The notes under the pieces: model-generated
Told to the model about the DNA's origin: nothing
The model's database searches: none
The model's input: only the letters and a program-made list of their open reading frames with translations
In this document: in pieces, positions 28,800 through 53,939 of the stretch
Numbering within the stretch: position 1 is the first letter of the stretch
Layout of the letters: each line of letters starts with the position of its first letter
Program-made: the position numbers and the translations under genes
Source: Arenicellales bacterium
GTDB lineage: Bacteria > Pseudomonadota > Gammaproteobacteria > Arenicellales > JAJDZL01
Direction of reading: 5' to 3'
Assembly (NCBI GenBank): GCA_958295885.1
Contig: OY282380.1
Span: forward strand, 4,263,109-4,327,108
Length of the DNA stretch: 64,000 nucleotides

Positions 28800-31288
28800 C
28801 AATGGCATTTACTTAGTGATAAATACGTGTTGACTTAATAGTACGCACCTCGCGGACGACTGTTTTCATTGAAATATGTTACTTTATGCTACTGGTTCGT
28901 CGATGCCTGAGGTTGATTTCGTTTACGAATCCATTTGTTTCGCGGCTGTTTCGATTGCCGCGCATAGGAACGATCAGGACGTTGTTTCTGACGTTGCCTG
29001 CTGATGCTGCTGACGATGGCATTGACCGTAGAAGCAATCAGTTCTGCCTGTCGCAGCACCAGCTGTTCCAGACTGCGGGCCATCACCTTCAGCGCATGCT
29101 TGAAATTCACCTGTTTTCTGTCTTCTTCGGGCGCACCCTGGATTCGATCTTCACTGTAGTTGGTGAAGATTCTCGTGAGCGTGATCAGCACAAAATGCGC
29201 ATACAGTTCCTGTTTGACGCCGCGTTCTGATTTGGCATGAAACTGCTCGATGCTCATCCATGATTTGGAAATCTTGTACATCTCCTCGATGCCCCATCTT
29301 TGATGGTACAGATCAGATAACTCCGAGATCGGATAGCGCACTGGATCCTGCAAAGTGACCGCGAGCGTGTAGGTGGTGTCGGCATGGGTGTATTTCACCA
29401 GTCGCAGTTTCAGCGGCGGACATTTCACCTGCGCATGGCGGCGGCGGATGCGAGTCCGGATTTGCGCGGTTGGCTCCACCTCGATGATCTCATCGGTGCG
29501 CTCTGAGTCCATGAACCGGTCCATCGCCACGGTCATGTTTTTCTGCAGACGGAAGACTGCCTCCACACCTCGCAGCCAGTGCGCATGCAGCATCTCGTAG
29601 CTGTAATAACCGCGGTCATAGACCACGACGTCGTTTTCGTCCAGCTGCTTCAGATGCGTCAGCGCAAGCTTTCGTTCATTGCCATGCGATGCCAGCTCAA
29701 AGTCAATTGGAACGCGCGCCTTGAGCTGATACAGACAGCTCACAAGTCCCTGCGGATAATGCGCCTTGTCATTGGGCGTGCGATAACTGTTTTTAAGCAG
29801 TTTCCGCGGCAGGTTGAGCCGGCTGCCGTCAACCGCATGCAGACGATGTCCCTGCCACAGAAAGTCCTTTCGCTGCGCTTCGGAGCGCTGCAGAATGCGC
29901 TGCTGCAGGACCTTGAAAACCTGCTCATCCAGCTTGGCGCGCGCCCGGCTCATGGCGGCCGCAGTGACCGGCTGTGGCTGTGGCAGGCGGATCTCCAAGT
30001 CGCGGCACTGCGCCCATAATTCGTCCAAACAGGTGGCATAACCCTGTCGATTGTCAGAAAACACCAGCCGAAAGATAAACAGCATCAACAACATCGTGTC
30101 GATCACTCGCCGCCGAACCCGCCACTTTTCATCAAATTCCGCCGCTACTTCCGAGATTTCGCCGATCAGATGCTGCCACAGCTGCACGAATGAATCCGAA
30201 CTCGCCAGCGGCTTCGGCATTGCTGCCTGCGCGCGTTTTTTGCGCTTCGCACGAGCCTTTTCACCGTGCGCTAAAATCTCTCGAAAACCTTCTTCCAAAG
30301 GATACACATAGACACCTTTAGGGGTTTTTCCAGAACGCTTCTCGGTGGTGCCCAGATACTGCCAGTTGGCCGCCCGATAACTGCTTGCCTCAAAGCGCGT
30401 CTCATCCACAAACGTCTCCATCAGCACCGGCCGACAGCCATGCTGGCACTGCCAGTCCTGCGGCAGCTGCCGACACACCAGCGACAAGGCCTTGGAAGCG
30501 AGATTTTTCACCCGCACCCACGGAAAGATCAGAAACCGACTGTTGTTGACCGCCAAGTGCAGATGTTTCTTGTGTTTCTGATCCTGCCAGCCAACCCACA
30601 CATCCCGACACGGCAGCGCCTTGACTGCATACTGAAACAGGAAACAGCCCAGTTTGCGACCCTGCCCGTCAACGATGAAATAACGCAGGTTCGCCCCGAT
30701 CGGATGCCGGTATCCCAGATAATGATAACGCTCCACCCATTCGTTGAATTCCCCTGCCTGATCCGCAGAAGTCACCAGCTGCACAGAAAGCGGCATCAGC
30801 TCCGACAGCTCCGCCTGTTCTTCGGTGCGCGCCGTCAGCGCCAGCGGCCTGCTCTTGCCGCGCTTAAGATGCGACTGCTTCGGCGGCAGCTGCACAACGC
30901 CCAATTGTTCCAGTTCCTCCAGCAGCAGCAGCGCTGACTGGTAGCGATTGACACCCTTTGATGTGTGCCAGCCTAAATGCTCACTGATCGTCTGCGCCAG
31001 CTCAGTCCGACTCAAATTCTCAAACAGCGAAACAGTCTGTTGAATCTCACCCAACTGTCTGCGGGTAAAACGATGACCGAAAAATGTCGTTGACTTCAAC
31101 TTCTTAATGCGCTCATCCACCGCTGATCTCCTGACAAAATGATCCTTACCTCTATTTTGACAGTACTGCACAAGAAAGTCAAATGCGGATGTGCAATTTT
31201 TTTACATCCCTCGATTTGCCCGCTATATCAATCTGTTGCCATCTCTACAAAAATCTGCAAATACATTTATCCTATGTTAATGCCATTG
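28800..31288 (-). mobile_element. DruA-IS4 insertion sequence, 2.49 kb, intact
   Basis: Ends match as inverted repeats: CAATGGCATTTACTTAG at 28800 and, on the other strand from 31288, CAATGGCATTAACATAGG. Both sides are flanked by CAGGGACGAC (28790-28799 and 31289-31298), a perfect 10 bp target duplication as produced by IS4-group elements. The undamaged duplication and open transposase gene suggest a recent insertion. Confidence 0.9.
28889..31120 (-). CDS. IS4-family transposase with N-terminal DruA (DUF4338) domain
   Basis: About 743 residues from GTG 31120, preceded by AGGAGA; the open frame extends 17 codons further. The N-terminal ~330 residues are a DruA-type domain: WVERYHYLGYRHPIGANLRY, LAVNNSRFLIFPWVRVKNLAS, METFVDETRFEASSYRAANW. 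After an Arg/Lys-rich linker (EKARAKRKKRAQ) comes an IS4 DDE domain with HAVDGSRLNLP, VVYDRGYYSYEML and YHQRWGIEEMYKISKSW supplying the three acidic residues. DruA was first named as a component of the Druantia defence system, but here it is clearly part of a transposase. The frame is intact. Confidence 0.88.
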   Translation of the reverse strand: MDERIKKLKSTTFFGHRFTRRQLGEIQQTVSLFENLSRTELAQTISEHLGWHTSKGVNRYQSALLLLEELEQLGVVQLPPKQSHLKRGKSRPLALTARTEEQAELSELMPLSVQLVTSADQAGEFNEWVERYHYLGYRHPIGANLRYFIVDGQGRKLGCFLFQYAVKALPCRDVWVGWQDQKHKKHLHLAVNNSRFLIFPWVRVKNLASKALSLVCRQLPQDWQCQHGCRPVLMETFVDETRFEASSYRAANWQYLGTTEKRSGKTPKGVYVYPLEEGFREILAHGEKARAKRKKRAQAAMPKPLASSDSFVQLWQHLIGEISEVAAEFDEKWRVRRRVIDTMLLMLFIFRLVFSDNRQGYATCLDELWAQCRDLEIRLPQPQPVTAAAMSRARAKLDEQVFKVLQQRILQRSEAQRKDFLWQGHRLHAVDGSRLNLPRKLLKNSYRTPNDKAHYPQGLVSCLYQLKARVPIDFELASHGNERKLALTHLKQLDENDVVVYDRGYYSYEMLHAHWLRGVEAVFRLQKNMTVAMDRFMDSERTDEIIEVEPTAQIRTRIRRRHAQVKCPPLKLRLVKYTHADTTYTLAVTLQDPVRYPISELSDLYHQRWGIEEMYKISKSWMSIEQFHAKSERGVKQELYAHFVLITLTRIFTNYSEDRIQGAPEEDRKQVNFKHALKVMARSLEQLVLRQAELIASTVNAIVSSISRQRQKQRPDRSYARQSKQPRNKWIRKRNQPQASTNQ

Positions 31289-44584: not shown

Positions 44585-47008
44585 CTGCCTATTCCGTACA
44601 AATTCAGTCTGGACTTAACTTATGTTGATTCCGACCTTCTGAGTTATGGTGAAACCAGCTTCCTTTTTGGGTCAGCATTTGCAGAGCCAAATCATAAGTC
44701 CGCGCCATTGTTGTCAGCATGCTATAGCCTTCCCAGATCTTCTTGTAACCCGGTGGCGGATCATTTTTACGATTCAAATAACCGGCGAGCATGGCCATCG
44801 TCACCACGCCGGCGCCGAGATTTTGTGGCACTTTTTTGCGATTTTGGCGTGCGAAGTCCTTCAATACACCGATTTCGGTCTCGCTAAACAGCACTTCCAT
44901 CGGCAATTCCGGAGTTTCTCGACCCAGCAGCGTCATCGCCGCAAGCCGCCAGGCAATCACCGCGTTGATGGTGACCGCACGTTCGATGCGCTCGCATTTT
45001 CGATGCTTGAGAAACTCCACCTTGCAGCCGGATTTCAAAATCCTGTGCCAATCTTCGATTCGCCAACGCAGCCGATAACGCTGTACTACTTGCGTCGCAT
45101 CGTGCGCGCTGTTGACCGCCAGACTGGTCAGCAGAAACCACTCCAGCGGCTTGACCGCGTCGCCGGCTTTTGCTTCATACACATGAACCAGATTCAACCT
45201 CAGCGGTTTCTCACCCGAAAAACCGCTCGTCGGCTGAATCTGCACCTGACGCCAGCGCAACTCGACCTTTGCCATCCGCGCCGGCTGCTTCGACATCGCC
45301 TTCTGACTGCGGCTGCTGCGCCGCGCCGAACGCGCCAACACCGGCACTTCCAGACTCGCCTGCGCACGTTGCCCGCGGATCGCATCGAACATCTTCGGCT
45401 GGCCTTTGCCTTGACTTCGATTATGCTGGGCGCGCATCAGCAACTCCACATCTGACAGCCTTCGACACTCGGCCATCACCGCAAAACAATCCGCCTCGCG
45501 ATCCATCACCGCCACCATCCGCACCTTTTCAAGCGGCGCCGCCAACTCTGCGCTCGCACGCAGCCCGCGCAGCCATCGCTGCGTCTTGGTGCCCTCGTCA
45601 TCCAGATGGCCATATTCAATGTGCGGCACCCCTAACGGCACTCCCTGCGCATCAAGCGCCAGCAGCGAATGCATGTGAATCCCCATGGTGCCAGCCGATT
45701 TGCGGTTGCGACTGATCAAGCCCATGCCCTGACAGCCACCGTGATTGGCGAAATTCAAATCGGTACCATCCTGCACGCACAAAACTTCCGACTGTGCCTG
45801 CATTCGCTCCTGCGTTCGCTGTCGATGCGGCGCCAAGATGTTCTTTGGCGTCACCGCCGATTCCGCCGGCTGATCCAGCAGACGATAATGCGCATGCACC
45901 GCCGCTTGATCCGACCTGGACGCAGCCGTGAACGGCTCCATCGGCTACCGAGCCTGGATGTCCGCACTTTTCACCAGTCTTGTGCTGCGACGCTCGTCAC
46001 CCAACGGCGCACCTCCAAATTCCTGCTCCGACCATTCATCAATCGCTAGTCCCTGACCTCTGTCACGCACCGGGACGCAAACCTTGTCCAACCCCAGATA
46101 CGTTCGCCATTTCCGTTCTAATTCATAGATATACACCGACTTCACAGCCGCCGCTTCAGACTTGCCCCCAAATCGACCGCGACCCGTCGTCCAGCCCACA
46201 TGGCGCCAGTTCGATGCTCGCAGCGATACCCCGCTGTGAGACGCATCCACAAACGTCTCCACCAAATACGGATCAAATCCATAGCGACTCTTGAAATCCC
46301 TGCCGACTCGACGCAGACACAGACCCAACACCTTCGACGCCAGATTCTGACAGCGCACAGAAGGCCGGATCAGGAACCGACTCATGCCGATCACTCGATT
46401 TAAATATCGAGACTTCAGCTCTGCATCCCAGCCCATCCACTGATCTCGACTGCGCAGCGCCAGCGCCGAAGACGCAAATCCCAGCGCACCCAAACAGCCA
46501 TGCTCAGACACTGCCAGATATCGCAGCTGACAGCCTACATGAACGACCGCTCCTCGCGGATGCTCGCGAATCATCAGCTCGTTCCACAGACGCAGCTGCG
46601 ATTCCTCTTCAACCACCACCAGCTGCAAACCGCTGACCTGATCCACCCGCGCCGGCACACCCTGCGCCAAGGCCACCGCCTGTCCCAATCCACGCGCCTT
46701 TACCTGGCGCACCGTACGACTCGAAGCCGGCAACTCGATCCGACCCGACCGCTCCAGATCCCGCAGCACCCTAAGACTGCTCGTCACCTGCGCTTTGCCC
46801 CGCGCATCGTAAAATCCAAACTCCTCACACACCGCATGCGTCAATTCCGTACGATTCGCAAAACTGCGCGTTGCCAGGATCGACTGCAACTGCTCCAGAC
46901 CAGATGCTGACCTCAGCTTGCGTGGAATTTGATTCTGCTGATACATGATATTCAAATGTACCAGCTCGAATTTTAAAAGTTAAGCCCCAATTTGTACTGT
47001 ATAGGTAG
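44585..47008 (-). mobile_element. DruA/Tn5-like insertion sequence, ~2.42 kb
   Basis: The ends match as inverted repeats (CTGCCTATTCCGTACAAATT at 44585 and, on the other strand from 47008, CTACCTATACAGTACAAATT). A second copy enters the window at 63709 with the same end. The flanks here are different truncated transposases (ISAs1 left, IS66 right), with no visible target duplication, so the element sits at a rearrangement junction. Confidence 0.8.
44604..46946 (-). pseudogene. DruA-domain / Tn5-like transposase, separated by one amber codon
   Basis: The N-terminal part, from ATG 46946, is a DruA-type domain: RGAVVHVGCQLRYLAVSEHG, VIGMSRFLIRPSVRCQNLAS, VETFVDASHSGVSLRASNW. It then reads SEQEFGGAPLGDERRSTRLV, the usual start of Tn5-type IS4 transposases, before TAG at 45945-45947. 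The same frame goes on with MEPFTAASRSDQAAVHAHY and the DDE domain: VLCVQDGTDLNFANHG, VAVMDREADCFAVM, YRLRWRIEDWHRILKSG. One base change separates this from a 780-residue intact enzyme; the two parts could also act as separate proteins. Confidence 0.82.
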
Positions 47009-47314: not shown

Positions 47315-48087
47315 CGCAAGAAAAATATCGATTCCGAATCAATCGTCGCAGCTCACACTCGGGGCAAAACTCCGAACTGCCGATCCATGCGAATGAATTT
47401 AAAACAATGGCCGTCAACCATAGCTTGCCAAAAAAAGACGCAGTAAGTCGAGCTCAATTCATCGCGCTCCCCGCCTCCCGTCAATATCGCTATCCAGAGA
47501 GCAAGATCACAACCATCTGGATCAAGTCCACAATCTGCCGCCGCTGAAAACGAATATGAGTCCGCGATTTCGTCTTGGCATTGACCGCAAAACACATCAC
47601 TTCAGCTACAATTATGGGGTACGGTAAATTCAAAAATCGCTCTCGGTCACAGACTTGGATTCAAGCAGACATGGCCCCGATCATTGAAACCCATACTCCA
47701 GTTTTGCCCCATTTACGTTATTTGGACTTTATAAATTTGAGCGGGTTGAGAATTCGTACGCATCAGGAATTTAAACGGGTTGATTGACCTTGACGCAAAA
47801 GGTAACATATATCAACGTATCGCAGAACAATTTGGAGTGTTTTTCGATTGAAAAAGTGCTGAGCGATCTTAGCGCTAGTGTCTTTTTCGGATTCAAAAAA
47901 GTAAATACTCATAGGACTGGATTCACAGAATTCCGCATAAGACGGTCAAATCCATTTTTTTGAATAAGCAAATCTATGACTTTTGATATATTTAGTCGTT
48001 CAGTATTCGTTCATATTGAGGTCATTATGAAGTGTTGACAAAAACGTAAACTCTGCAGTTGAATTAGCCATATCAGCACTAGCCTCA
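47315..48087. other. Gene-free stretch before the MBL operon
   Basis: Short frames at 47353-47595 (minus) and 47575-47787 (plus) have no recognised domain. The last 200 bases are AT-rich and probably hold the promoter of the operon starting at 48088; no hexamers were assigned. Confidence 0.45.
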
Positions 48088-48783
48088 ATGATATTCCAAC
48101 CTGAAATTTCAGCTTGCTCGATCAAATTAATCGGACAGTTTAATCCTGCAATATTTCATCCCGCTTGGCTTCATAGTAAGAGAATTGAACAAATAAATTC
48201 TGAATTTGCTGGGGATTTCATTACACTTCGAGAATTTGCCCAATTCTCAATCGAAAATCGCTCCTATCTCGTACAAACTGATCGTTTTCAACTTGCTACC
48301 TCCACTGCTCCGTGGGTAAAAATTTTGGATATCACAACTAAAATTTTTCACGAACATCTTTACCACACCCCAATTACTGCGTTTGGAATTAACCACGAGG
48401 TGCATTTCAGGCTATCAAGCTGGGCTGCACGAGTTCGACTTGGTCGAACATTGGCTCCAGTTGATCCTTGGGGCAAATTTGGACAAGATATGGATGTCGA
48501 GCAAAGAAATTTAACCGGTGGACTTCAGAGTTTAACAATGAAGCGAAAATCAATAGTTCATGGCAGCAGATTTGAAACTAACGTCACTATAGAACCTTCT
48601 TCGAAAATTTCAGATGGTACAGGTGTCTACATGCGTGTCAATGCTCACCACTCAATAGAAGGCGTATCGGATGGTTATGGAAGTGAAGAGGCAATGTCCC
48701 TATTAGCAGAACGGTTTGAACCGACTTTGGAAGAATCGGAGACTATTTTCAACACAATAATGGTGGAGGGAAAGAAACAATGA
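48088..48783 (+). CDS. Unknown protein, first gene of an MBL-linked operon
   Basis: A 231-residue protein starting MIFQPEISACSIKLIGQFNP. The middle contains RFQLATSTAPWVKILDITT and HTPITAFGINHEVHF, the later part SLTMKRKSIVHGSRF, VTIEPSSKI and GVYMRVNAHHSI. The alternation of short strands suggests a beta-rich domain. I see no catalytic motif and cannot name a family. The stop overlaps the next start by four bases (ATGA), so translation is coupled. No strong Shine-Dalgarno precedes the ATG, and a later start is possible. Intact. Confidence 0.65.
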   Translation: MIFQPEISACSIKLIGQFNPAIFHPAWLHSKRIEQINSEFAGDFITLREFAQFSIENRSYLVQTDRFQLATSTAPWVKILDITTKIFHEHLYHTPITAFGINHEVHFRLSSWAARVRLGRTLAPVDPWGKFGQDMDVEQRNLTGGLQSLTMKRKSIVHGSRFETNVTIEPSSKISDGTGVYMRVNAHHSIEGVSDGYGSEEAMSLLAERFEPTLEESETIFNTIMVEGKKQ

Positions 48784-49415
48784 AAAACCTCGCTTCAAGT
48801 TTAGATTTCGAACAGAGAGTTGCATCTTCTCGCCTTGGCTCCCAACAACAGCCAGATGATTTCCTAGAAAAATTGGTGAAAGAAAATATTAGAGGAATAC
48901 TCAAAGAAAAACACCATTTAAAACATTTACCTACAACAGAATTTGTCGATTTCCCGTCAAATGATACAGCGGCCCAATTTAACATGACTGATTCAATCGA
49001 AGAAAGAATAAAACTTAGAGACGTTGTGCCGCCTATTGGTTTCAGTCACATGCATCCTAAGTGGACTCGTACAATGACATCCACAGCCGAATGGGAAGGA
49101 TATGTTGAGAGTATAAGTGAAGATGAATTTTGCGTGAAGATGGTTGATGTTCGATCAAAAGTGTCTCTTCCAACTGATCAAGCAGTATTTTCTAAAGACG
49201 ATATCAGTGAATACGACCGACAAAATCTCAAGGTAGGCGCAATTATACGATGGGTTATTGGACGAGAGCGATTGTTAAGTGGTCAAATTCGTAAAGTATC
49301 GGAAATTCATTTTCGGCAACTCCCTATTCATACAAAAGCAGACTATGACCGAGCGTTGAATAAAGCAAAAGCACTCTTAGATGAAGTAGTTTGGGATGAT
49401 GCCGAGGGCGGATGA
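48780..49415 (+). CDS. Unknown protein, second gene of the MBL-linked operon
   Basis: A 211-residue protein from ATG 48780, with GGAGGGAAAG upstream inside the previous gene. The N-terminal ~90 residues are polar and probably flexible. From about residue 95, AEWEGYVESISEDEFCVKMV, KVGAIIRWVIGRERLLSG and IRKVSEIHFRQLP suggest a small beta-barrel (possibly OB- or S1-like, inference). The gene overlaps the following MBL gene by 20 bases. Intact. Confidence 0.65.
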   Translation: MKNLASSLDFEQRVASSRLGSQQQPDDFLEKLVKENIRGILKEKHHLKHLPTTEFVDFPSNDTAAQFNMTDSIEERIKLRDVVPPIGFSHMHPKWTRTMTSTAEWEGYVESISEDEFCVKMVDVRSKVSLPTDQAVFSKDDISEYDRQNLKVGAIIRWVIGRERLLSGQIRKVSEIHFRQLPIHTKADYDRALNKAKALLDEVVWDDAEGG

Positions 49416-50481
49416 AATTGAGGTTACTGTTTTTGGGCCTGGGTATGGTGAGTGCATTGTTATTCATATTGGATCTGGAAAATGGGTAATTGTCGACTCA
49501 TGCCTTGATGATGCCGGCGAACCAGCATCAATTTCCTATCTGACGAAACTTGGCATTTCGATTGAAGATTCTGTAATTTCGGTCAGTGCATCTCACTGGC
49601 ATGATGATCATATCAAGGGGCTGGCGAAGACAGTGGCGGCATGTCGCAGCGCAAGACTTTCGCTTGGCGCAGCTTTAACGTATTCGGAATTTCTTGCATT
49701 TCTTCAGGTTTTTGAAGATCAGCCCGTTCAAAAGCTTGATCGGGGAGGAACAGAACTTTTGAATTGTTTGAAGATTGTTAATGAGACGGGTCGCTCAATT
49801 AAACCTTTAAGTGAAGATACGTTAATTTTCGATTTCCAACCTAACGCACTGGCACATCGGCGGCAAGTGGAACTACGGGCACTTTCCCCTTCCGGTCAGC
49901 AGTTCTCAGATTTTCTGACACGGTTGAAGCATTTTCCAGCAATCATTATGGGGCGTACCAAAGGCAGGATAGTTGAACCGTCACGTAATGATCTTTCAGT
50001 AGCGATGATTTTAACAGTCGGGCAACAAGGTGTCTTGTTAGGCGCAGATTTAGAACAGGTAAGTGATCCAAAAAAGAGTTGGCAAGCGGTAGTTGATGCT
50101 CGTAAAGGAAAATCACCACTCTCCCATTTGTTCAAAGTTCCACATCATGGATCATACAACGCGCACAACGACGATGTGTGGATTGAAATGCTTGATCAGT
50201 CATTACAAGCAGTAGTTACACCGTGGACTAGGGGCGGGCATCGTCTTCCGAGGGAAAGTGACTTGAATCGTCTGCGCCGTCTTAGTAGTAAGTGCTATTT
50301 GACAAGTACAAAGACGATCCCAAAAAAGAGAAGATACAATGCACAGATTCTCAAACAGATCAAGTCTGCAGGAGTGAAGTTTGACTCGTCGATTTACTCC
50401 AGTGGACATGTAACATTTCGTTGGATTCCCGATAGCAGTTCACCCAGTGTTGGGCTATTTGGTGGAGCAGTCGCAATCTAA
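49396..50481 (+). CDS. Metallo-beta-lactamase-fold hydrolase, third gene of the operon
   Basis: A 361-residue MBL-fold protein starting MMPRADEIEVTVFGPGYGEC, with strand-loop IHIGSGKWVIVDSCLDD, then the metal-binding motif as SASHWHDDHIKG (HxHxDH variant HWHDDH), a later acidic position in LLGADLEQVS, and PHHGSYNAHNDD with a further His pair. These residues are those of a competent ComEC/Rec2-like or RNase Z-like MBL hydrolase with two metals. The gene overlaps its upstream neighbour by 20 bases. Nuclease, nucleotide or lactone hydrolase activity are all possible. Intact. Confidence 0.8.
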   Translation: MMPRADEIEVTVFGPGYGECIVIHIGSGKWVIVDSCLDDAGEPASISYLTKLGISIEDSVISVSASHWHDDHIKGLAKTVAACRSARLSLGAALTYSEFLAFLQVFEDQPVQKLDRGGTELLNCLKIVNETGRSIKPLSEDTLIFDFQPNALAHRRQVELRALSPSGQQFSDFLTRLKHFPAIIMGRTKGRIVEPSRNDLSVAMILTVGQQGVLLGADLEQVSDPKKSWQAVVDARKGKSPLSHLFKVPHHGSYNAHNDDVWIEMLDQSLQAVVTPWTRGGHRLPRESDLNRLRRLSSKCYLTSTKTIPKKRRYNAQILKQIKSAGVKFDSSIYSSGHVTFRWIPDSSSPSVGLFGGAVAI

Positions 50482-50816
50482 TCGATGCATGACTGAATTG
50501 TCGAGTGCCTGACGGAATTCTTACTGATTTTAGACTCGCAGAATCATACGAAGTCCCTTGCCGCCATCACCGGGCGACTATGCTTCGACCGTCCTCATGC
50601 TCTTTCTTCAATCCGGTGATTTCCTTGCTGCTGATGGCTATCGACAACGTGATGTGCCCCACGTACGTTTAAACTGACGACTACCGCAATGGCAACGTTT
50701 GGATTCGAAAAATGGTCGGGTAAGTTAGAACGAATATTTGCGACGGTGAAAAGTCAGCTTGGTCAATGAGAACAATGGGGAAATAGAGGAAAAGCGTAAA
50801 TGTACTTGGTAAAAAT
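50482..50816. other. Gene-free stretch after the MBL operon
   Basis: No gene recognised. Convergent ends of the MBL operon and the truncated nuclease gene; no clear terminator hairpin found. Confidence 0.45.
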
Positions 50817-51276
50817 TCAGTTTATGTATTTGCTAATTGAGTCGCCGCATCTTAGCAAATAGATTTGGTATTTTTGATTTCCATACTTAATTTTAGACCG
50901 CCGCAGAATTTTCAATTCCTCACTGTGGATTCTTGCTCTGCTGCCATGAAACAGCAGTGGAATAACTTTAAATGAGCTCTTATAACTGATCCAACCTTTC
51001 ACAATTTCAATCCCATCCTGTAACTGTTTCGCAGCTTTACTCGCTTTGAATTTTCCGCTTTTTAGCTCAATTGGCACTATCCACGAATTTTGATCTTTTT
51101 CTGCGAAAACAACGAAGTCGCAGTTCTTCTGAATTTGAAGACTCTTGACTTCATCACAATCCATATCTATAACAACTCGAGTTGTCGGGCATGAATCTAA
51201 CAACGCACTGCAGCCATCTCTCTTACAATTTATAGCATGACATGAAGAAGATACAGATTTACGAACCGAATTTACC
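50817..51276 (-). pseudogene. Nuclease-like protein, 5' end lost to an IS66-type insertion
   Basis: About 150 codons upstream of the stop at 50817 read CHAINCKRDGCSALLDSCPTT, then VVIDMDCDEV, NCDFVVFAEKDQNSWIVPI and IELKSGKFKASKAAKQLQDG. The D...(E)LK...QL pattern is that of PD-(D/E)XK nucleases and the paired Cys suggest a small zinc site. The frame runs straight into the IS66-type element at 51277; the corresponding 5' part is not visible on the far side. Confidence 0.55.
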
Positions 51277-51310
51277 GTAAATATTCGGCCAACCCATAGA
51301 CCGAGAGGGA

Positions 51311-52162
51311 TCAACTGTTGAGTATTTTCCTGAAGTCCCGGCACAGCGGGTACAGCCAGATATCCTTGATCGGTAATGTTGGCTTGGCGGAGGCAGCGCA
51401 TTTGCCGAGTCCTTTCGTTTGACCGACATTGATCCAGTTCGCAGCCTGGTAGCATGTACCCAAAAAGCGCTGTTCAACGAAAGTCTCAAGCAGCACCGGT
51501 CGAATCCTGTAACGATCGTACCACTGCTGCGGCGGCTCCCGGGCGAGCCTTGCAAGCAGGTGCGAGGCAAGATTGGGACACTTGATCCAAGGCAGAATGA
51601 GGAATCCTGCATTGTTTACGATCCGTACCAGATTGGCTTCTCTGCGCTCCCGATTCCAGCCGATGAAGTCATCCCGGGGTGCGGTTTTCCATGCTGCGGC
51701 ACCGAAGCCGAAGGCGGTGACAATCTGGCGGTCTATGGCAGCGAAATAACGCTGCTGAGCGCCGGGCAGGGGTTTGTATCCAAGATAATGATAGCGTTCA
51801 ATGTATTCGTTCCAAAGACGTGAATCAGCGGGGGTTGACACCCGCCAAAGTTGAGGTGTTGGCAACTCATGCAGCGGCGCACGGATCGGTGTCTGCGGTG
51901 CAGTGCTGTCGGTGAAGCGGATGACCGCCCTGGGAGGCTGGCGACGAGGCGGCGGCAACACAATCAGCTGATCTCGATACATGCGCAGCATCGCCACCCG
52001 GCACGACATCTGTTTGAGTCCTCCATCGGGCTTTTTCCAATCCAGCAGCTCACAGACCTGCTGCGACAGCCGGGTTCTGGAACTGTCAGGATGGGCGGCA
52101 ATCAGTTTGCGAATGCGCTCCAGCTCCTTGCAACTGAAGTCGCGTCCGCAATATCGAGTCAT
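51311..52162 (-). CDS. DruA-type (DUF4338) protein, separate gene in the IS66-like element
   Basis: A 283-residue protein from ATG 52162; the open frame extends 19 codons further, but this ATG overlaps the tnpC stop as ATGA. The N-terminal part SCKELERIRKLIAAHPDSS is the helical DruA lead-in, then YIERYHYLGYKPLPGAQQRY, IVNNAGFLILPWIKCPNLAS and LLETFVEQRFLGTCYQAANW. These positions (YHYLGY, RY, NLAS, ETFV, ANW) recur in the other DruA domains of this window. It has no DDE domain. Its translation is coupled to tnpC. Intact. Confidence 0.85.
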   Translation of the reverse strand: MTRYCGRDFSCKELERIRKLIAAHPDSSRTRLSQQVCELLDWKKPDGGLKQMSCRVAMLRMYRDQLIVLPPPRRQPPRAVIRFTDSTAPQTPIRAPLHELPTPQLWRVSTPADSRLWNEYIERYHYLGYKPLPGAQQRYFAAIDRQIVTAFGFGAAAWKTAPRDDFIGWNRERREANLVRIVNNAGFLILPWIKCPNLASHLLARLAREPPQQWYDRYRIRPVLLETFVEQRFLGTCYQAANWINVGQTKGLGKCAASAKPTLPIKDIWLYPLCRDFRKILNS

Positions 52163-53939
52163 GGCGGCTGTGAGACGGTTGAAAGACAGCCGCGTTGCGT
52201 TGATACCGCTGCCTCGCACTTTGAGATCAGAGAACTGCGCTGGCTGACTGCAGCCGATGGCTGCGACATCTCAGCCCGTCGAGCCTCGCTCATCCGCCAG
52301 GGAATGAAAGCCTCAGGATTCTCAGGCGCCGGTCCGCCATTGGCGGCGCAGGCGCTGAGATATTCATACAGCCATCGATGGGGATTGAGATCCCACAAAA
52401 GCACGCTCTGAATGATTGAGAACATCTGTGCTGCCAGCGAAGCGCTCCAGTGACTGCCCGAGCCGCGGCAGTTCTTGCGCAGCATCGCTGGGTTGCGCAT
52501 CTTCCGCTCCCCAGATTTATTATCAAGCGCAACCTGGGGATGTTTTAAAAACACCATCAGCCCCGACCAGTGATTCTGCAGACTGCTCAGCACCTTGAGT
52601 TGGGCCGGATGCATCTGTTCTGTCGACAATTCATGCTTCAAAGTCCGCTCCATCTGCTCGACCGAGTGCTCAAGCCGCTGCTGTTGGCGCATGAATGATT
52701 CGCTTTGCCGAGCCAACGGCCTCGACTCATCGAAATGCTCCTGACGACGCGCATTGAGGTGATAGATCTCGCCAATGCGCTCCCGCCACTCGAACATCCA
52801 CCGCTCCAGTTGCGGGTACTGCACCGCAGCTTCGAGATAATCCCGCCGCATATGAACCCAGCAAAAAGCCAGTATGATCGCCGCATTGACCTTCGCCAAT
52901 CGTTTGTAACCACTGTAACGGTCACAAATGACAAACACTTCCTTGAGCTTTTCAGACAGTGAACTGAAGTGCTCGATCGGAACATCACCGCTGCGCGTCG
53001 GCTCAATGCGGTAGATCACCGATGAAGTGCTCTCAAACACCCACAGATACCACCGACTGCCGATTTTCCCCTCCATCTTCTCATAGACCTTCCAGCCGGT
53101 CTCGTCACAGTGAAATACCGAATCTTCCATCTGCCGCTGCATCAACTGATCCAACAGCGGCTCGAACAACGGCGCCATCTTCTTCAAACCGTCAGTCACC
53201 GTACCTTGTGAGATCGCCATGCCCTGATCACGCATCTGGCGCAGCAGATTGCAGGTCGAACGACTGTACCAATACTTGCTCAGCAAAATCTCAACCCACA
53301 CCGACACCCCCAGCAATCCCTTGGCAATGACCCGCGGCGCCGGCTTGGCTGTCACCACGGCCGGAGTTTGACGGCAGTTACAGGTCTTTGCAAATTTTTT
53401 CCGCCGGATCTCGCGAATATGCGCCTTCGTAAAATATTCCAGAATCTCCGAGTTGTCGGTGTTCGACATCGGCGCATAGGCAACGCCACAGGAATCGCAC
53501 ACCTGATCTTCAGGCGCAACATCCAAGGTTTCAACTTCACGCGCCAATTTCTCTCAAGGCGTGCGTCCATGACCCTTGCTGCCGCGCTGTGCGCCGCGCT
53601 TTTTTTGACCGGCTTTTTCTCAGTTTTACGACCATAGACCTGTTTCTCCAACTGCCATACCCGCGCCTTTGTTCGCTCCAATTCCTCACTCTGCCGGCGA
53701 TGCTTCTCCAGCAGTTTCAAATACTCTCGGGTTTCATGCTCCTGCTGGGATTGCTCCAAGTGGTAACATTTATCTTTCCATTGTTGAGCAGGGCCCCGCC
53801 AACGGTTCACATCATACTTCAACTGAATATGCTCCTGCTTCGACAGCCTTACGAATTGTTTGGAAAAAGGCGTCGATCCACCTTTTCCCGAATCCGAAAA
53901 CTCCGCAGGTGGGTTTAGTGGGTTGAGCTCATTTGACAT
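52159..53939 (-). pseudogene. tnpC: IS66 TnpC transposase, frameshift and nonsense codon
   Basis: The first 110 codons, from ATG 53939, encode LSKQEHIQLKYDVNRWRG and RVWQLEKQVYGRKTEKKP; the rest, in another frame, encodes the zinc-binding segment CDSCGVAYAPMS, DDE-type core (VFHCDETGWKVYEKMEGK, VICDRYSGYKRLA, CWVHMRRDYLEAA) and the C-terminus (VALDNKSGERKMRNPAM). A run of seven A (53600-53606 on the plus strand as T) would need eight to connect them, after which TGA occurs in KGHGRTP*EKL. Most of the DDE domain is intact. Confidence 0.8.

Follow-up and report, generated by a model that had tools for sequence, protein, structure and literature searches.

The closest described relatives of the MBL-fold protein considered here come from natural competence, the setting of ComEC/Rec2, and from phage defense. 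ComEC also has an OB domain (PMC5031224). HamM is a ComEC-like pro-nuclease that must be cleaved by a partner protease before it degrades DNA and protects against phage, and it stands with LmuA, Avs1, and the DRT-associated MBL pro-nucleases among the nuclease–protease pairs (PMC12799240). The anti-phage system 6A-MBL (NCBIfam NF058524) likewise has an MBL-fold member. The window analyzed here, 64,000 nucleotides from an Arenicellales bacterium (contig OY282380.1), contains an MBL-fold gene behind two genes that we call orf1 and orf2. An earlier note, made from the sequence alone, had described the three as an overlapping operon, and our ORF check of the window bears this out: all three frames are intact and on the + strand, orf1 and orf2 share 4 bp (ATGA), and orf2 and the MBL gene share 20 bp. 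The features of the region are as follows.

45945-46955, DruA-type gene with a DruA domain and a transposase DNA-binding domain
47761..48087, + strand, upstream region, 327 bp copied along with the trio; 84% identical 5' of the second genomic copy
48088..48783, + strand, orf1, 231 aa; its family has no model
48780..49415, + strand, orf2, 211 aa; its family has no model
49071..49319, + strand, predicted OB-fold of orf2, residues 98-180; pLDDT mostly >90
49396..50481, + strand, MBL-fold hydrolase, 361 aa; ComEC-nuclease-like
49594..49611, + strand, HxHxDH metal-ligand motif (HWHDDH); across 109 homologs the first H, second D, and last H are invariant and the middle H is 98% conserved
50047..50049, + strand, Asp of GADLE, predicted bridging metal ligand; invariant in 109 homologs and aligned with the ComEC ADIE
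50140..50154, + strand, PHHGS with the last metal-ligand His; 109 homologs conserve its two H at 99% and 100%, and the motif aligns with KVPHHGS of 9ic4
51311-52219 (-), DruA-type gene, neighbor of the trio
52159-53547, IS66 element, neighbor of the trio

The upstream region is probably the promoter region of the trio. The two DruA-type genes and the IS66 element give the operon the mobile-element setting that the earlier note had described. Because of the transposase DNA-binding domain that the gene at 45945-46955 carries in addition, DruA here appears to belong to an insertion element. Positions 28889-31171 (-) of the window are occupied by a 760 aa ORF from this repeated DruA-type element. 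The element matches a 2.5 kb stretch adjoining the second trio copy at ~98% identity, and the genome contains ~8 full copies that are nearly identical, along with 65 related places. A further 212 aa ORF (50817-51455, -) overlaps the DruA-type gene and shows a likeness, below threshold, to the immunity proteins Imm53/Imm59; it may be what is left of a nuclease-like or immunity gene.

Pfam assigns the window MBL protein only to Lactamase_B, below threshold. A profile search against solved structures is more specific, placing the MBL domain of ComEC (9ic4) first and far ahead of every other solved MBL, with two matching stretches that cover both halves (E 7.9e-13 and 5.3e-11). Both ligand motifs reported earlier, HWHDDH and PHHGS, are present, and together with the D of (G)ADLE they complete the ligand set of the ComEC type. 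The trio MBL and ComEC/Rec2 share a G-x-G near the start, the HxHxDH-type motif, ADLE/ADIE, and KVPHHGS. The trio differs from ComEC/Rec2, however, in that it has no membrane channel, its OB domain is a separate protein, and it includes a dedicated partner, orf1; in its MBL, HxHxDH and ADLE are also ~40 residues further apart. Among defense proteins, the nearest PADLOC models are those of the Lamassu, DRT, and Avs1 MBLs (LmuA, RTasMBL, and Avs1a), with LmuA and RTasMBL matching 89 and 88, respectively, of 90 MBL members. Like the nuclease–protease pairs, the trio, as a predicted defense operon, has a separate MBL gene, but its partners are orf1 and orf2, and its MBL gene comes last rather than first. 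HamM-type systems are recognized by an adjacent trypsin-like protease fused to a defense enzyme, an arrangement that the trio lacks; in our neighbor survey, neither a trypsin-like protease nor a helicase, STAND, or RT gene recurred beside it. Similarity to 6A-MBL is weak (3.7e-5), and a score of 23 bits, where the cut-off is 220, leaves the protein outside that family; the only recurring partners of the trio MBL are orf1 and orf2.

The second gene encodes what is predicted to be a disordered tail followed by a five-stranded OB barrel. The N-terminus (~70-140 residues) is variable and modeled with low confidence, and the C-terminal barrel is conserved. When the barrel was compared with solved structures by VIA-align, archaeal IF5A ranked first (Z 7.5), followed by cold-shock domains, IF1, RPA, and SSB; the Z scores are middling, yet nearly all of the top rows are small beta-barrels of the OB kind. 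An OB-fold alone is no proof of nucleic-acid binding. Searches of 85 orf2 relatives against Pfam returned single chance matches only, and the window protein has no match in NCBIfam. PADLOC-DB 2.0.0 gave no match to orf1 or orf2 for the window, Hma-linked, Stutzerimonas, or lambdoid-prophage copies, and chance-level matches only (0.002-0.004) for the orf2 of a P2 prophage. In an alphaproteobacterial MAG (locus L071, 1321-3030), an almost complete FtsZ (Pfam Tubulin 1e-49, FtsZ_C 2e-35) continues in frame into orf2, and the fusion begins at the ATGA overlap with orf1. A second FtsZ in the same MAG is 96% identical and ends at a contig edge, so misassembly is possible and the fusion was left out as evidence.

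The ComEC-type similarity of the MBL, its invariant ligands, and its OB-fold partner lead us to infer a nuclease triggered by its partners, as the earlier note had suggested; to our knowledge, no MBL with partners of this sort has been demonstrated to be a nuclease. A defense cassette could also work through an MBL that hydrolyzes, in place of DNA, a small phosphoester such as a nucleotide second messenger, with the OB protein binding RNA or a ligand. OB-folds do bind small ligands, and ModG is among the structural matches of orf2; moreover, MBL-fold proteins have been tied to cyclic-nucleotide cleavage in phage–host conflict (PMC9117128). The lead of ComEC over the other solved MBLs speaks against this reading, as does the lack of any nucleotide cyclase recurring near the trio, and we consider it unlikely, though the strongest of the alternatives.

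The orf1 protein is confidently predicted to adopt a two-layer alpha/beta fold, with a long helix at the C-terminus (AlphaFold2, pLDDT 95, pTM 0.90). Conserved positions include N-P-x-x-F-x-P-x-W, D81, G-I-N, P124, W128, and N-x-H. Consistent with the earlier note, which recognized no family for the first two proteins, Pfam, PADLOC, and NCBIfam are blank for the window orf1 and orf2, and 95 orf1 relatives gave single chance matches only in Pfam and NCBIfam. Structure searches yielded no clear relative of the fold. The matches are middling: a guanido-kinase domain (Z 8.6), AdoMetDC (Z 7.5), and TBP (Z 6.8), with a Foldseek TM of ~0.3, all score within the range usual for two-layer folds, and we assign no function from them. 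The best viral structural match is a protein without a name (A0A515MGR4, TM 0.59-0.66). By eye, orf1 resembles TIGR04255, a sporadic uncharacterized family, but the likeness is too weak to claim: it is limited to residues 56-121 (66 columns; pairwise P 0.002, HHalign probability just 14%), and none of the 95 orf1 members matches TIGR04255 in NCBIfam. TIGR04255 may be a very distant relative; a protein of that family is encoded elsewhere in the same genome (2927002-2927760 of contig C1). An E. coli orf1 homolog, WP_000143147.1, is labeled "anti-phage protein" in two RefSeq records and "hypothetical protein" in another, and the former name, which counts in favor of defense, may mean that someone has already tested an E. 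coli member.

The three genes are conserved as one unit. Scans with an MBL alignment yielded 80 genomic loci and 36 on viral contigs, and the addition of earlier loci brought the set to 121. Profile searches place orf1, orf2, and the MBL gene in that order on one strand in 110 of these, with genes mostly overlapping or abutting; the same order and strand thus recur across related loci, and the arrangement is not due to chance. The exceptions comprise loci truncated where a contig ends (L021, L031, L035, L079, and L084), broken copies (L007 and L032), distant MBLs (L121-L123), and one trio concealed by the choice of start codon in our analysis (L037). Because MBL-seeded scans could bias this count, we ran the reverse search with orf1 alone against 299 genomes of the phylum. 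Three foreign genomes match, all with orf2 and the MBL gene alongside, and no orphan orf1 was found in the set. Pairwise distances among the three proteins are also correlated (Mantel r 0.85-0.88, against a permutation maximum of 0.125). The constancy of the partners and the mostly overlapping genes suggest that the three proteins form a complex. Adjacency was the check that the earlier note had proposed, and neither of the outcomes that it had named as telling against its reading, an unconserved trio or a housekeeping family for the first two proteins, was observed.

The second check proposed was location in defense islands, and here the settings point to defense. In five P2-like prophages, the trio lies in the cos-proximal region beside the portal gene gpQ, and in four of them gpA can be seen flanking it opposite gpQ. 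The gpA–gpQ interval of P2-like phages is an anti-phage hotspot (Rousset et al., PMC9122126), and related phages hold other cargo there. The same study describes an unnamed three-gene hotspot system active against P1; that system is said to be without a clear predicted domain, and the MBL makes identity with the trio unlikely. Eleven lambdoid elements carry the trio adjoining antiterminator Q, and in the annotated E. coli neighborhoods that we examined, which belong to lambdoid prophages, the three genes are flanked by holin and Q.

A further setting is the Hma operon, the BREX-related type 1 of PMC12839542. At seven genome loci from diverse phyla (L020, L038, L048, L054, L060, L072, and L077), an operon that PADLOC calls Hma, with genes for a DUF499 ATPase, DUF7680, a DUF1156 methylase, and a PLD-SNF2 helicase, contains or adjoins the trio. 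In some of these, the trio is 2-41 bp from HmaB or overlaps it by 4 bp, and in several, DUF7680 lies upstream. The seven loci occupy one branch of the MBL tree and so are not seven independent events, but ~six changes on it are needed to account for them. The trio is nevertheless distinct from Hma: most trio loci are without Hma genes, PMC12839542 mentions no MBL, and HmaA/B/C are not among the genes adjoining the window copy. DUF1156, DUF7680, and DUF499 are the only strongly recurring neighbors; what we claim is specific contexts and not a measured enrichment. Other first neighbors include single type I and type II restriction genes, DrmD, HEC-07, and PsyrA along with many ordinary metabolic genes, and outside prophages and Hma loci, the immediate neighbors are mostly ordinary.

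Members come from 17 labeled phyla, including one Thermoplasmata archaeon, and the spread is patchy, with ~1% of species in the phylum carrying the trio by the orf1 search of 299 genomes. Among 5426 E. coli genomes, 14 carry one variant and 2 carry another. Besides prophages, plasmids of Adhaeribacter (Bacteroidota) and Pantoea hold the three genes in the same order. Phyla are partly intermixed on the MBL tree, which fits horizontal transfer without proving it. No match to the MBL turned up by tblastn in a set of 50,697 phage genomes; the prophage copies came instead from IMG/VR. The frequency of the trio in prophages beside late genes is what would be expected if it were counter-defense or fitness cargo of prophages and plasmids, for example a nuclease that clears host defense signals or competing plasmids, or an aid to DNA processing. 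About two thirds of the loci, however, are genome contigs, many outside any recognizable prophage, and the association with Hma and restriction genes also points away from such a role, which we regard as the least probable of the readings weighed here.

The window's own genome contains two intact trios, at 4.31 Mb (the window) and 3.23 Mb, whose MBL proteins are 93% identical. Homology between the two is confined to window positions 47761-50512 (92.8%), that is, the trio with 327 bp upstream and 31 bp downstream, and the upstream DNA occurs in this genome only 5' of these two trio copies. Between the intact copies, dN/dS is 0.50 for orf1, 0.30 for orf2, and 0.20 for the MBL gene; the ratios fit purifying selection on all three genes and mark orf1 as the fastest-changing. 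A third copy is broken, with stops in orf1 and a damaged MBL gene (L007, G000:C1:1165040-1166108), and a fourth is an orf2 remnant with four stops (G000:C1:3440904-3441185). Neither the MBL gene nor the 327 bp of upstream DNA is present in any of the five other genomes of the genus. Such copy turnover is as expected of a mobile accessory cassette. It also bears on the idea of a toxin–antitoxin-like module, in which the MBL would be a toxic nuclease neutralized by orf1, orf2, or both, and the genes would be kept mainly by addiction, with any effect on phage secondary. Tight coupling of the genes, co-variation of the proteins, and the mobile and plasmid settings would suit that idea. Against it, this genome tolerates copies that are in decay, even if the intact copies could mask addiction, and the P2 hotspot and Hma contexts suit defense better; we rate the module as improbable, marginally less so than the cargo reading.

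The trio travels as one unit and sits in known anti-phage spots and within another defense operon, and it is therefore most likely a phage-defense system, undescribed or barely described. That it serves defense in some form we hold with high confidence. The fuller reading, a self-contained mobile anti-phage cassette with the MBL as effector and orf1 and orf2 as dedicated partners, we favor at somewhat better than even odds, and the gated-nuclease mechanism sits just below it, a little above an even chance. In this mechanism, the MBL, produced together with its two partners, would be a two-metal phosphodiesterase of the ComEC/HamM type, with DNA as the most likely substrate. The OB-fold of orf2, on its long flexible tail, would probably guide the complex to nucleic acid in single-stranded form, for example intermediates of phage replication or recombination. 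The fast-changing alpha/beta protein orf1 would most likely sense the invader or restrain the nuclease. Upon infection, the restraint would be released, and the MBL would degrade the phage DNA or the DNA of the whole cell. In its simplest form, the OB protein would deliver or license an MBL nuclease that orf1 would restrain or trigger.

The effector is of a known kind; its combination with orf1 and orf2 is not in the libraries that we searched. The three-gene composition is absent from Pfam, NCBIfam (June 2026), and PADLOC (2023). A full-text literature search found no description of the trio, with some likely sources and supplements outside its reach, and the main texts of the functional-selection and DefensePredictor papers mention no MBL. 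More tentatively, and at rather less than even odds, we propose that the trio is a system of its own type, a protease-free and helicase-free gated MBL nuclease under an OB-fold sensor and a new alpha/beta regulator, present in bacteria and archaea and recruited also as an extra effector of Hma operons.

ComEC-like MBL nucleases are known defense effectors that must be switched on by a protease. If our reading is true, the trio would control the same kind of enzyme in another way, through protein families that are both new, and would do so from a compact cassette of 2.4 kb whose range extends from E. coli prophages to an archaeon. Its small size, its presence in E. coli prophages, and its absence from the detection libraries that we searched mean that it could be tested at once and added to defense annotation.
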